From a virus, in the IMG/VR virus record IMGVR_UViG_3300030012_003178, positions 1 through 45,830 of that record: DNA of 45,830 nt, one strand, 5' to 3'. The translations under genes were made by a program, and so were the position numbers. This document shows, in pieces, positions 35,905 to 41,581 of this stretch. Within the stretch, counting starts at the first letter, position 1. Each line of letters starts with the position of its first letter. Below the pieces are notes generated by a model, which did not search any database, was not told where the DNA came from, and saw only the letters and a list, made by a program, of their open reading frames with translations.

Positions 35905-37809
35905 CTATCTGGTAAACCTTTTACTATTAACGAAACTTGAGGGTGGTGTATAGGACGAACCTGATCTATCTGAACCTGAAGATATCAAATCCTCTAAGAG
36001 AGTCAATCTGCTTCCACTAGTAGTATCTAGCACAATATAAAGGTTCTGTTTTGCAATGATATCATTAGATTCTGGTATTACTTCAACTTCAATTTTATTT
36101 GGAATCGTTGAAGATGAAATATTGATTGCAGACAGAATAATTTCACCTTTTACATAATCAACAGAACCTGCATTATTATTAATAAAGTTGGGTGAACTAT
36201 CAATAAGAGTAAAAAATCTAACAACACCAGTTAATCCATCAGAATTTGGTAAATCTGTTAAAAATACGTCGCCATCAACTCCTTCAATCTTAAATGATGA
36301 TGATCGTATGTTAAACCCTTCCAGATCTGCATGAAATCTATTTGCATAACATAATTCATAGTTTGCAAGTTGTCCAAACGCAGGTTTTAAATCTCTTCTC
36401 ATTTTAAGAACAGTTATATTTGAAGTGATTGCAGTGTCAACTTTGTCAATTGTAGATAATAACTTACTATACTTAAGTCTACCTCCAAAAGAGTTAATGT
36501 CTGATGATTTAGAATATGTTTCAATCGATTTAAAAATACGAGAGGATAAATCTTCTTTGGTTGTGATAAGTCCAGGATCATAAGATACAGTAGTATCATA
36601 TTCAACATATAAAAATTTCAAATCAACAAATTCTTGTTGAATTCCAGCAACTGTATATTGTTTCAATCCTGCTTTAATTGCAGATTTGGCAGTGCTTGAT
36701 AATATCTCTCCAGTCTTAGGTTTAACAGTAATAAAAACTTTTCCGAATTGTGGAGGATCCAATTCCTCACCTCCATATGCACTCACAGAGTCAATATTTG
36801 GATAAACCGATGGAACCAAACTAATATAATCATTTGCAGTTACTGCTCGGTATTGCGACGCATACACCCTCGGAGCAAGGTACTTGACATTATCAACGGG
36901 TTCAATATTATCACCACTCTCAGACGCTTGTGTGACCGTTAGAAGAGATATATTGTTTGTAACTGAAGTGTCGGTTATTGTATCACCATTTCGACTTGGG
37001 TAAGTTAGATTCCCTGCGAAATTAAAGTTAGATGCACCGTTACCATCTGTGCCATTAGTAACAATATAAGAAACTTTAATAGTACTACCATTTGGTGGTT
37101 TTTTACCGAGAACTCCATCACCGAATAGAATTTGATATTTTTCATCTGAAATCTCCTGTATAAGAAATAATCGAGACTCTGAGTTAACTTGAAATATATT
37201 CTCATACGCATTATATATTTCGATTGTTCCAGTTTCACCATCGGTAACCGAAACTCGAATTGTAGTCGTATCTATGTCTGTATTCGGTAAAATATACTTG
37301 TCATCTAATTTTGCTGCATTTACTTTAAATTCTTTTGTAAGGTAATTTCCTTCATATATTTCGATATTTTCAAATACTGCTGTTCCATCACTTCCAGGAG
37401 TTGCTATAATTTTATCTGGTGTTGAAAAAGTAAATGATCCGTTTTCAATATTACCAAGTGCAACAACTCCTGAATTCAATGTAATGAATCTTGCTGGAAT
37501 ATTTGATACATCTACTGTAAAACTTATCTTTGCAACTGCTGCTCTCTTTGATCTTGGAACATATCCGATGTTTCTTGCGAGTGATACAATATTTTCTCTT
37601 ACAGTTGCACTATCAATAAACGCTTCATTGACTGCCATGTTAGTATTATAGGCAGTAATATAGGAATTATACGCTAAATTATCAATTAATACAGAAAAAT
37701 TAGAACCTTCAAAGTCAAAATCAGTAAAATTTGAGTTTGACCTCAAATAATCCTTAATTTGAGTGCGTAAATCTTGAAAATCTAAGTTTGTGAACTGATT
37801 AAATGCCAT
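35905..37809 (-). CDS. 6: Baseplate wedge protein gp6
   Basis: The 634-aa protein is about the length of T4 gp6 (660 aa). The N-terminal region FTNLDFQDLRTQIKDYLRSN, then FEGSNFSVLIDNLAYNSYI and AFIDSATVRENIVSLARNIGY (about 25-95) is diagnostic of the gp6 / J-like wedge family. RLFLIQEISDEKYQILFGDG (around 225) and VYASQYRAVTANDYISLVPS (around 320) are also typical. Gp6 dimers form the continuous ring that joins the six wedges and reorganise during contraction. Its start shares one base with the gp25 stop (TAATG), so translation is coupled. Confidence 0.96.
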   Translation of the reverse strand: MAFNQFTNLDFQDLRTQIKDYLRSNSNFTDFDFEGSNFSVLIDNLAYNSYITAYNTNMAVNEAFIDSATVRENIVSLARNIGYVPRSKRAAVAKISFTVDVSNIPARFITLNSGVVALGNIENGSFTFSTPDKIIATPGSDGTAVFENIEIYEGNYLTKEFKVNAAKLDDKYILPNTDIDTTTIRVSVTDGETGTIEIYNAYENIFQVNSESRLFLIQEISDEKYQILFGDGVLGKKPPNGSTIKVSYIVTNGTDGNGASNFNFAGNLTYPSRNGDTITDTSVTNNISLLTVTQASESGDNIEPVDNVKYLAPRVYASQYRAVTANDYISLVPSVYPNIDSVSAYGGEELDPPQFGKVFITVKPKTGEILSSTAKSAIKAGLKQYTVAGIQQEFVDLKFLYVEYDTTVSYDPGLITTKEDLSSRIFKSIETYSKSSDINSFGGRLKYSKLLSTIDKVDTAITSNITVLKMRRDLKPAFGQLANYELCYANRFHADLEGFNIRSSSFKIEGVDGDVFLTDLPNSDGLTGVVRFFTLIDSSPNFINNNAGSVDYVKGEIILSAINISSSTIPNKIEVEVIPESNDIIAKQNLYIVLDTTSGSRLTLLEDLISSGSDRSGSSYTPPSSFVNSKRFTR

Positions 37810-38219
37810 TATACCCTTGTCGGTTGTAGTAGGAACTCTATATTTTGACTTGGAATCGGTAATCCGATGATATTATAGTCAATTTGAACATTCAAGTCGT
37901 TAGAGTCTTGATTTGCTTCTACATATACACTATTTAATTCAATTCGAGGTTCATAATTTTTTAATAATGTGCTAATTTCTTCTTCTAATACTGCATCAAC
38001 ACCAGAATTTGTGTTTTCAAAGAGTAAATCACCAATTGATGTACCCAATAACTCATTAAAAAACCTCTCATTAATCCGAGTTCGAGTGAGATTAATGACA
38101 GATCTCTTAATTGCGTCTTCATTTCTCAAAATAGTTACATCATTTGTAACTGGATGCCTTTTAAATGACAAACTTATGTCTTTAAATGCACGAGAAACTT
38201 TAGTCGTAAAGGTTGACAT
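37809..38219 (-). CDS. 25: Baseplate wedge protein gp25
   Basis: The 136-aa protein matches T4 gp25 (132 aa) in size. It shows the family pattern: an N-terminal strand region (VSRAFKDISLSFKRHPVTND), IKRSVINLTRTRINERFFNE, the conserved LGTSIGDLLFEN, LLKNYEPRIEL and a final strand (IDYNIIGLPIPSQNIEFLL). Gp25 sits at the junction of wedge, hub and sheath and starts sheath assembly. Its first codons overlap the end of a 56-aa gene by 20 bases, and its stop touches the gp6 start. Confidence 0.95.
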   Translation of the reverse strand: MSTFTTKVSRAFKDISLSFKRHPVTNDVTILRNEDAIKRSVINLTRTRINERFFNELLGTSIGDLLFENTNSGVDAVLEEEISTLLKNYEPRIELNSVYVEANQDSNDLNVQIDYNIIGLPIPSQNIEFLLQPTRV

Positions 38220-39674: not shown

Positions 39675-40433
39675 TCAGATGATTCTTGTCTTCTCGTGCC
39701 CGACTCGGATCTTCGGATCACACCAGATCTCAAAACCTGCTGCGATTGCATCCAAACAGAAGGAGACATCCTCGCCACACATGTCCTGCACTTCTCCAGA
39801 TTCAAATACTTGCATCTTCGGAGCAAACCAGGGATACTTGAGACCCTCATGCTCAAACACCCCGTGCTTGATCAATAACCAACCAAATCCTGCATAGTCA
39901 ACAGTGAATGGTTTGCGTCTCTTGCTCATGGTTTCAATGGTCTCATGATTCATCACTCCACCATTCTGACGGAAGTCTTCTTCTTCCATCCAGTGTGCAA
40001 CGGATGTTGTCTTTCCATCCTCTGTACAGTACCATCCTGATGCAATGTTCTTATTCATGTGTACAAGACGGTAGAACTTCTCAGTGTCAAATACAATATC
40101 ACTATCAATCCATAACTGATAGTCATACTTTAACTTACCATCCCAGGGCAACTGGTCAGGTCCTCGAAGAACATTTGCACCCAGACACTTACATCTTGCA
40201 AAATTCACCATTGATGAATAATCTTGAGATATCTGAATCGCTGCTCCGTTCTGTACAAGATCAAAGCATAACTGAACGAATGCTTTTAAGAAGGTATATG
40301 AGACTCCTCTTCCTGGTAAGCAGAATACAACTGTCTTTCCTTTGATTAGTTGCTTCGCTTCTTCTAAATTAAACTCGTCAACAGGTGCCTTCTTCTTCGG
40401 CACATCTGCCTTGACTGTAAATCCTTTTGCCAT
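39675..40433 (-). CDS. Putative GT-A fold glycosyltransferase (252 aa)
   Basis: After a charged N-terminal segment, the protein shows the order of a retaining or inverting GT-A glycosyltransferase. KTVVFCLPGRGVSYTFLKAF (33-52) is the nucleotide-sugar binding strand-loop. YQLWIDSDIVF has a DxD metal site (D110, D112). MCGEDVSFC has E221/D222 as acceptor-side residues, and VGHEK supplies H246 as a possible metal ligand. It is soluble, with no signal peptide. The donor and acceptor cannot be told from sequence. Modifying DNA, virion proteins or host surface sugars are all possible. It has its own sigma-70 type promoter at 40458-40486. Confidence 0.8.
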   Translation of the reverse strand: MAKGFTVKADVPKKKAPVDEFNLEEAKQLIKGKTVVFCLPGRGVSYTFLKAFVQLCFDLVQNGAAIQISQDYSSMVNFARCKCLGANVLRGPDQLPWDGKLKYDYQLWIDSDIVFDTEKFYRLVHMNKNIASGWYCTEDGKTTSVAHWMEEEDFRQNGGVMNHETIETMSKRRKPFTVDYAGFGWLLIKHGVFEHEGLKYPWFAPKMQVFESGEVQDMCGEDVSFCLDAIAAGFEIWCDPKIRVGHEKTRII

Positions 40434-40665: not shown

Positions 40666-40666
40666 A

Positions 40667-40697
40667 GCGGTCTTATGATTGTCTCTGTCCCATTATA
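40667..40697 (-). promoter_or_regulatory. Promoter -10 box and repeated leader of the 49-aa gene
   Basis: The minus strand has TATAAT at 40697-40692. The leader then contains ATCATAAGACCGC (40679-40667), a 13-base string that occurs again at 43893-43881. A -35 box is poor (TTTTGT at 17 bases). The repeated leader string could be an operator or an RNA signal. Confidence 0.5.
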
Positions 40698-41032
40698 TAG
40701 AGTTGGGGGTTTTTACAAAAAAAATTCTGGGAAAATTTTTTGGAGGGCCTCTGAAGTCTTATGGGATTTCCCTTAAACCATACAGAGTTATGTATAAATT
40801 TCTGGATCTCTGGGGTCTTGGGGGTAAAATTTTCTGGGCGGATTTTTTATTTCGCTCGCTTTCTGGGTTCGTTGTAGGTTAGGGAAGTTAGCGTTTTTTA
40901 AACCGCAAGGGGCCGCCCGCCCCAAAAATCGTAATAAAAATTAACTGCATTTTTAGCATCTGCAAATATAATGCACGAAGTAAACAAATAGGGGTCAAAT
41001 CCATTGGTATGACTGGGATGTGCCACTTTTAA
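40698..41032. other. Noncoding stretch with G-runs, possible RNA hairpin and GC-rich inverted repeat
   Basis: No convincing gene is present. Two related segments, TCTGGGAAAATTTTTTGGAG (40726-40745) and GGGGGTAAAATTTTCTGGGC (40820-40839), look like a degenerate duplication. Between them, CTCTG (40749-40753) pairs with CAGAG (40783-40787) and TATGG (40760-40764) with CCATA (40778-40782), giving a bulged stem. At 40909-40923, GGGGC-CGCCC-GCCCC is a GC-only inverted repeat that stands out in AT-rich DNA. It is not followed by a T-run in either direction, so it is not a normal terminator. Confidence 0.5.
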
Positions 41033-41257
41033 CAATTAGTAATATATACACTATTAGTAATTATACCTATCAATAACTTGACAACGAATTAGCGTCCTTA
41101 AGTGTTAAATAACGAATCACTATTTGTTAATTAGTGACTTAATAGTTGTTAATTAGTGTTAGTTACATTGTATTGTATAAAATAAAAAAAGGGCAATAAC
41201 GAAGTCATAGCAAGGGATCTGGACGATAATTGTTTATATATAAGGACGTAATTAGTA
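41033..41257. repeat. Iterated AATTAGT-type repeats
   Basis: The core (T)AATTAGT or a one-base variant occurs near 41034, 41052 (TATTAGTAATTATAC), 41087 (AATTAGCG), 41127 (TTAATTAGTGACTTA), 41149 (TTAATTAGTGTTAG) and 41250 (TAATTAGTAATTGTAC). Several spacings are close to multiples of one helical turn (about 19-21, 34 and 42 bases), so a protein could bind them on one face. They lie in a gene-free region next to the AT-rich block and DnaA-like boxes. Confidence 0.55.
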
Positions 41258-41340
41258 ATTGTACTCATACGCTAATATAATATTGAAATCTTACATATTT
41301 CTGATAATATTATTATATACGATTGATAAGAAATGCTAAT
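41221..41340. other. Very AT-rich block, possible DNA unwinding element
   Basis: This stretch has roughly one G or C in five bases by eye and includes runs such as TTTATATATAAGG, GCTAATATAATATTG and GATAATATTATTATATACG. No gene is present. Its position, beside iterated repeats and about 140 bases from the DnaA-like box array, fits the unwinding element of a replication origin. AT-rich noncoding DNA alone would not show this. Confidence 0.45.
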
Positions 41341-41452
41341 TGAAAATGGTTATCATTATCGCACACTAGATGTAGTTGTTCGGTTATCCGCACTTTACAA
41401 AAAATCGTGGATTCTCATAAGACTCAGGCACAGTAACATTTTATACATCACT

Positions 41453-41475
41453 TTGTATCATATGTGTTTGACAAA
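41453..41475 (-). promoter_or_regulatory. Promoter-like repeated element, copy A
   Basis: On the minus strand this reads TTTGT, five bases, then ACATATGATACAA. The end is an extended -10 (TGATACAAA). The same element occurs at 42674-42696 with all 18 fixed bases identical. This copy lies only 2 bases from the DnaA-like array, and transcription from it would run leftward into the AT-rich block. Confidence 0.5.
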
Positions 41476-41477
41476 AG

Positions 41478-41544
41478 TTCTCCACAATGCTTGTGGAAAA
41501 CCTGTGGAAAACCTGTGGAAACGCTGTGGAAAACTTGTGGAGAT
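41478..41544. repeat. Array of DnaA-like boxes, 11-bp period
   Basis: On the minus strand, boxes related to TTTTCCACA lie at plus coordinates 41492-41500, 41503-41511, 41514-41522, 41525-41533 and 41536-41544, each exactly 11 bases from the next. Three are perfect TTTTCCACA, one is GTTTCCACA and the last is ATCTCCACA. An inverted sixth box, TTCTCCACA, lies at 41478-41486 and forms a 10-base dyad with the first box. TTTTCCACA is, to my knowledge, the usual DnaA box of cyanobacteria. A weaker plus-strand box (TTATCCGCA) lies at 41384-41392. The array most likely binds host DnaA. Confidence 0.7.
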
Positions 41545-41570
41545 ATGGGTGTAACATATATCACACCCAT
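41545..41570. repeat. Perfect 8-bp inverted repeat next to DnaA-like boxes
   Basis: ATGGGTGT (41545-41552) and ACACCCAT (41563-41570) flank a 10-base AT-rich centre. It directly follows the box array and lies 11 bases beyond the stop of the 65-aa gene. There is no T-run, so a terminator is unlikely. It may be an operator or a cruciform-forming part of the origin. On the minus strand it is preceded by TATGATACAG, another extended -10-like string. Confidence 0.55.
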
Positions 41571-41581
41571 CTGTATCATAA

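Follow-up and report, generated by a model that had tools for sequence, protein, structure and literature searches.

A recurrent cluster of cyanobacterial-type DnaA boxes, and possible replication origin, in T4-like Synechococcus phages

Phages of the T4 type serve in textbooks as the example of replication that needs no host initiator: the T4 origins oriF and oriG consist of a promoter and an unwinding element, are primed by an R-loop and do not depend on DnaA. P1-type and other plasmid origins combine DnaA boxes with iterons and a Rep protein, and datA in E. coli is a DnaA titration site that limits chromosome initiation. DnaA-box origins and DnaA-regulated promoters are already known kinds of element. 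The published cyanobacterial DnaA-box consensus is the 9-mer TTTTCCACA (PMC4674748), which is present in the oriC of Cyanothece 51142, Anabaena 7120 and S. elongatus 7942. The Cyanothece oriC has two boxes 2 nt apart (an 11-bp step) that are bound cooperatively; a pair of perfect boxes at this spacing was a better target for Cyanothece DnaA(IV) than a pair of imperfect boxes separated by 10 nt, and no clear binding to single boxes was seen (PMC4674748). In phages of Alphaproteobacteria, sites for a host cell-cycle regulator, CtrA, lie in phage regulatory DNA and are claimed to act in transcriptional control (PMC9437464). For Syn9 a single theta origin was predicted, unlike T4, according to a review (PMC2984593). 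This computed origin was the only one mentioned in the literature searched, in which no experimental cyanophage replication start was found, and no report of DnaA boxes in T4-like cyanophages was found in the open-access literature searched.

The window analysed here, meaning the whole stretch of DNA, is a 45.8-kb linear viral contig and a T4-like cyanophage fragment. Its first-pass annotation as T4-like agrees with the presence of the baseplate genes gp25 and gp6, and a neighbouring gene region (39675-40433) shares 79% DNA identity with Synechococcus phage S-T4. The array of boxes (41478-41544) lies inside a non-coding gap. Boxes were assigned by sequence match, and the features are listed below.

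35905-37809, minus strand: gp6, baseplate gene
37809-38219, minus strand: gp25, baseplate gene
40666-41581: non-coding gap holding the element
41342-41360, minus strand: Fur-box-like 19-mer palindrome, 17/19, the best in the window and in the same gap as the array
41394-41423, plus strand: promoter-like TTTACA-N18-TAAGAC, aimed at the boxes and 54 bp from them, weak alone (p about 0.008)
41424-41477: A+T-rich stretch between the promoter-like motif and the boxes, a possible unwinding segment
41478-41486, plus strand: inverted DnaA box TTCTCCACA, one mismatch to TTTTCCACA, forming a dyad with the first minus-strand box
41492-41500, minus strand: DnaA box TTTTCCACA, perfect
41503-41511, minus strand: DnaA box TTTTCCACA, perfect, +11 bp
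41514-41522, minus strand: DnaA box GTTTCCACA, one mismatch, +11 bp
41525-41533, minus strand: DnaA box TTTTCCACA, perfect, +11 bp
41536-41544, minus strand: degenerate DnaA box ATCTCCACA, two mismatches, +11 bp
41545-41570: perfect 8-bp inverted repeat ATGGGTGT ... ACACCCAT, adjoining the last box, with no T-run

The first-pass annotation had described five boxes on one strand, each exactly 11 bp from the next, and an inverted sixth box that pairs with the first as a dyad, and the coordinates agree with this to the base (41478-41486 on the plus strand with 41492-41500 on the minus strand). Mismatches of the minus-strand boxes to TTTTCCACA are, in order, 0, 0, 1, 0 and 2. The three boxes described as perfect are so, and they are the sole perfect copies of TTTTCCACA in the 45.8 kb. 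Matches with at most one mismatch number 28 in the window against 25.9 expected by chance; the total of single boxes is at chance level, and the non-random part is therefore their clustering, which reaches five boxes (at most one mismatch) per 60 bp compared with one to three in 60 Markov shuffles. Independently, TRF reported a period-11, 4.5-copy array with a score of 79 as the top-scoring tandem array of the window. A coding repeat was rejected, as the array sits in a non-coding gap and the short ORFs over it are mechanical. The 9-mer is that of cyanobacterial oriC and the step matches that of Cyanothece; unlike those origins, the phage array, as a putative origin, is carried on a lytic phage genome, has no dnaN beside it and is flanked by divergent promoter-like sequences.

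A search with a 77-bp query matched about 80 cyanophage records. Perfect TTTTCCACA was mapped across 22 complete cyanophages and TTWTCCACA in Syn9, P-SSM2, P-SSM4, P-HM2, S-RSM4 and T4, the last five being searched genome-wide by exact TTWTCCACA only. Clusters of TTTTCCACA are present in 17 of 27 complete T4-like cyanophages, namely S-SM2, S-PM2, S-RIM44, Syn1, Syn9, S-RIM2, S-RIM12, S-ShM2, S-H38, S-CAM1, S-CAM3, ACG-2014a, b, c and d and, with one-mismatch boxes, S-BM3 and S-SSM4. No cluster was found in S-T4, S-CAM7, ACG-2014f, ACG-2014j, ME01 and S-RSM4 (six of the 23 Synechococcus-type genomes), in any of the four Prochlorococcus phages (P-SSM2, P-SSM4, P-HM2 and MED4-213) or, by the exact genome-wide search for TTWTCCACA, in T4. 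The difference between Synechococcus-type (17/23) and Prochlorococcus (0/4) phages has a Fisher probability of about 0.012 when kinship is ignored. Where gp25 was mapped, the clusters are found about 3-8 kb upstream of this gene, within the stretch of small genes that precedes the structural module (array and gp25 at 58.1 and 61.0 kb in S-SM2, 37.7 and 42.7 kb in ACG-2014d, 47.0 and 51.5 kb in S-RIM2, 52.6 and 58.3 kb in Syn9, and 19.2 and 26.9 kb in S-PM2; 3.3 kb apart in the window); S-BM3, S-H38, S-CAM1, S-CAM3 and Syn1 are left out of these distances. Most contigs found through gp25 ended too soon upstream of it, though several of sufficient length carry clusters, and a DUF7178-neighbour search gave two distant loci only. 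In one cyanophage contig (L185, 877-1795), TTTTCCACA forms several separate clusters upstream of gp25, all inside about 1 kb.

An unbiased ranking was performed in which, for every 9-mer, the genomes with two copies 9-60 bp apart were counted (24 genomes including the window, with about 20 kb around the site used for most). The most locally clustered 9-mer was TTTTCCACA, with 16 of the 24 genomes; none of its overlapping shifts exceeded 7, the highest count for an unrelated 9-mer was 4, and about 20,400 other 9-mers of equal G+C all scored 0-4. This gap in rank indicates that the signal is carried by exactly this 9-mer, and the ranking and the Markov shuffles together rule out a chance origin of the array. 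Perfect box pairs within 60 bp were confined to the cluster in five whole cluster-bearing phage genomes. Across viral contigs, TTTTCCACA-N2-TTTTCCACA was found in mixed phages among the matches listed, so that the pair is not a specific pattern; triple TTTTCCACA arrays are rare (30 contigs).

Box steps are 11 bp in the window and ACG-2014d and 12 bp in S-RIM44, Syn1, S-H38, S-CAM1, S-CAM3, S-PM2 and MbCM6, and the sequence outside the 9-mers differs between phages. Inverted partner boxes, where present, are separated by about 5 or 14 bp; some arrays lack them, those of Syn1, S-RIM44, S-H38 and S-CAM1 being direct only. In some phages, S-PM2 among them, the two inverted boxes together form a perfect palindrome. 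A 9-mer that is kept while spacing and orientation shift is what a protein-binding site under turnover typically shows. Of the 11-bp-phased array anticipated in related cyanophages, the cluster recurred (17/27), in one non-coding region, but not every phage has the phasing, since steps of 12 bp and inverted pairs are equally common. Conservation at the locus was likewise partial. L147, which of the relatives covering the whole gap is the closest (DNA identity near it about 84%), has its boxes in this gap too, displaced by about 450 bp, and L268 (74% identity) has none; the nearest relatives thus do not share the exact position, and in the clade of the window it is therefore the gap that is kept as a place and not the individual array.

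The A+T content and promoter-like motifs beside the boxes were compared between genomes. An A+T-rich stretch on the gp25 side of the boxes is significant (p<0.05) in nine of 18 genomes, whereas the stretch in the window (up to 75% A+T in 40 bp) is ordinary for this A+T-rich phage; in S-BM3 and S-SM2 the A+T peak at p<0.05 is on the other side, away from the promoter motif. Beyond the A+T stretch, usually 43-75 bp from the boxes, lies a conserved motif, RYGCTWAGAYNACWAC, which occurs about once per genome and in most genomes forms TTGACA-N17-TAAGAC aimed at the boxes; S-SM2, S-BM3 and S-H38 have TTGACA-N17-TAGAAT/TAGACT in its place. Because the relatives supplied the TAAGAC form, its fit in those relatives is circular; the window, whose TTTACA-N18-TAAGAC has the same layout as the motif of other cyanophages, was not among the sequences used for the derivation. 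A perfect or near-perfect sigma70-type TTGACA-N17-TATAAT points away from the boxes, toward gp25, in most genomes, and in most array-bearing genomes this outward promoter stands at a distance of 110-165 bp from the boxes. No such promoter is evident in S-PM2, S-RIM44, Syn1 and the window, and elsewhere its distance and strength vary.

DnaA domain IV is not encoded in any of the 25 phage genomes searched, a DnaA ATPase domain is absent from the window, and a phage-encoded DnaA was therefore discarded as the binder. The host DnaA of WH7803 and RCC307 keeps the box-reading signature GGKDHTTVMYA. With the family-wide recurrence of perfect 9-mers, the turnover of their spacing and orientation and the published biochemistry of a cyanobacterial DnaA, these results give good support to the original identification of the boxes as cyanobacterial-type DnaA boxes, and it is very probable that DnaA binds these phage arrays. 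Upstream of dnaN in marine Synechococcus WH7803 and RCC307 only degenerate boxes were found; the host consensus is thus taken from other cyanobacteria, and marine Synechococcus oriC was set aside as a direct template. We also considered that the boxes serve another phage or host protein with a preference for TTTTCCACA, or form RNA or DNA hairpins. S-RSM4, which keeps the promoter motif and the A+T part, has TTGATTCTCAATAGCA / TTATTGAGAACC repeats in place of the DnaA boxes (L500, about 1700-1900), as another binder might allow, and the palindromic pair of S-PM2 would suit a hairpin. However, TTTTCCACA is identical to the cyanobacterial DnaA box, one cyanobacterial DnaA is known to prefer the 11-bp step (PMC4674748), and hairpins are impossible for the direct-only arrays, on which ground a terminator or hairpin reading was rejected. 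This alternative is improbable.

We interpret the array as a cis-acting host-DnaA site in a recurrent Synechococcus-phage control element that is most likely a replication origin, an interpretation for which the case is very nearly evenly balanced. The origin function, taken by itself, is plausible but falls somewhat short of an even chance. Host DnaA-ATP would load cooperatively on boxes one helical turn apart, adjoining a short stretch of DNA with a high A+T content in many of the phages, and transcription from the adjacent promoter-like sequence into the boxes would help to melt the duplex or would give a primer. The first round would then be begun by two phage proteins, the helicase loader gp59 and the helicase gp41, after which recombination-dependent replication would take over. 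By analogy, this layout of initiator boxes, A+T segment and inward transcription resembles an origin uniting oriC-type and T4-type elements. As with oriF and oriG, the setting is a T4-type phage, and a promoter-like sequence is directed into a segment that is often rich in A+T; T4 itself has no need of DnaA and lacks the TTWTCCACA cluster. As at P1-type plasmid origins, a foreign replicon would recruit host DnaA through a cluster of boxes, but iterons and Rep were not found beside the phage array (without a dedicated Rep search). Location of the origin by GC skew was abandoned: no change was seen at the array in five whole cluster-bearing genomes, where the skew follows gene direction. Since nearly all of the genes run in one direction, the flat skew neither proves nor excludes an origin.

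The layout is also compatible with DnaA control of divergent early promoters, the main alternative to an origin. Bound host DnaA would then repress or activate these promoters in an early transcription switch, and the phage early genes would sense the replication state of the host, as CtrA does in phages of Alphaproteobacteria. The outward TATAAT-type promoter, strong in most array-bearing genomes, and the motif aimed into the boxes are consistent with such control, as is the Fur-like site in the same gap, which from its sequence suggests a site for a second host regulator; precedent is given by the reported control of phage genes by CtrA, a different regulator (PMC9437464). The inconstancy of the outward promoter, including the four genomes in which it is not evident, argues against it, and we regard a switch as possible but rather doubtful. 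A Fur-box-like palindrome (16/19) is also present in L147 (628-646), in the same non-coding gap as the 17/19 site of the window.

The tight clusters of perfect boxes and the lack of a phage DnaA could also be explained by a DnaA sink, in which the multiplying phage genomes would draw off host DnaA and halt initiation of the host chromosome. A sink could work at any place and without promoters around it, and clustered boxes number only about 2-6 per genome, which makes this explanation very improbable; the flanking promoter architecture is more in favour of an origin or of control of a promoter than of a passive sink. Returning to the origin, we tentatively propose, with rather less than even confidence, that most T4-like marine Synechococcus phages start replication at one DnaA-recruiting origin with 11/12-bp-phased boxes and a promoter, which Prochlorococcus phages would have lost or never had. 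These viruses may thus use the host initiator to start or time their own replication, and, if so, phage replication or early expression would be linked to the replication state of the host. The element provides one precise candidate site in the well studied isolates S-PM2, Syn9, S-RIM2 and S-CAM1.

Several existing annotations overlap the arrays. In S-PM2 (AJ630128, 19177-19333) a tRNA-Asn and a tRNA-Leu are annotated over the array, at least one of which may be wrong, and the tiny CDSs annotated over the arrays of S-SM2 (GU071095, 57997-58101) and Syn9 (NC_008296, 52477-52635) are probably not genes. Similar repeats were encountered in other records. Some ssDNA microviruses (MZ089777, Microvirus mar31; MG945484; gokushovirus records) have the same TGTGGAAAACC 11-bp repeat, which occurs at up to ten places in one 5.2-kb microvirus genome. 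Among Arthrobacter phages, MH834612 and its relatives include several with arrays of the TTTTCCACA 9-mer about 100 bp from the right end.
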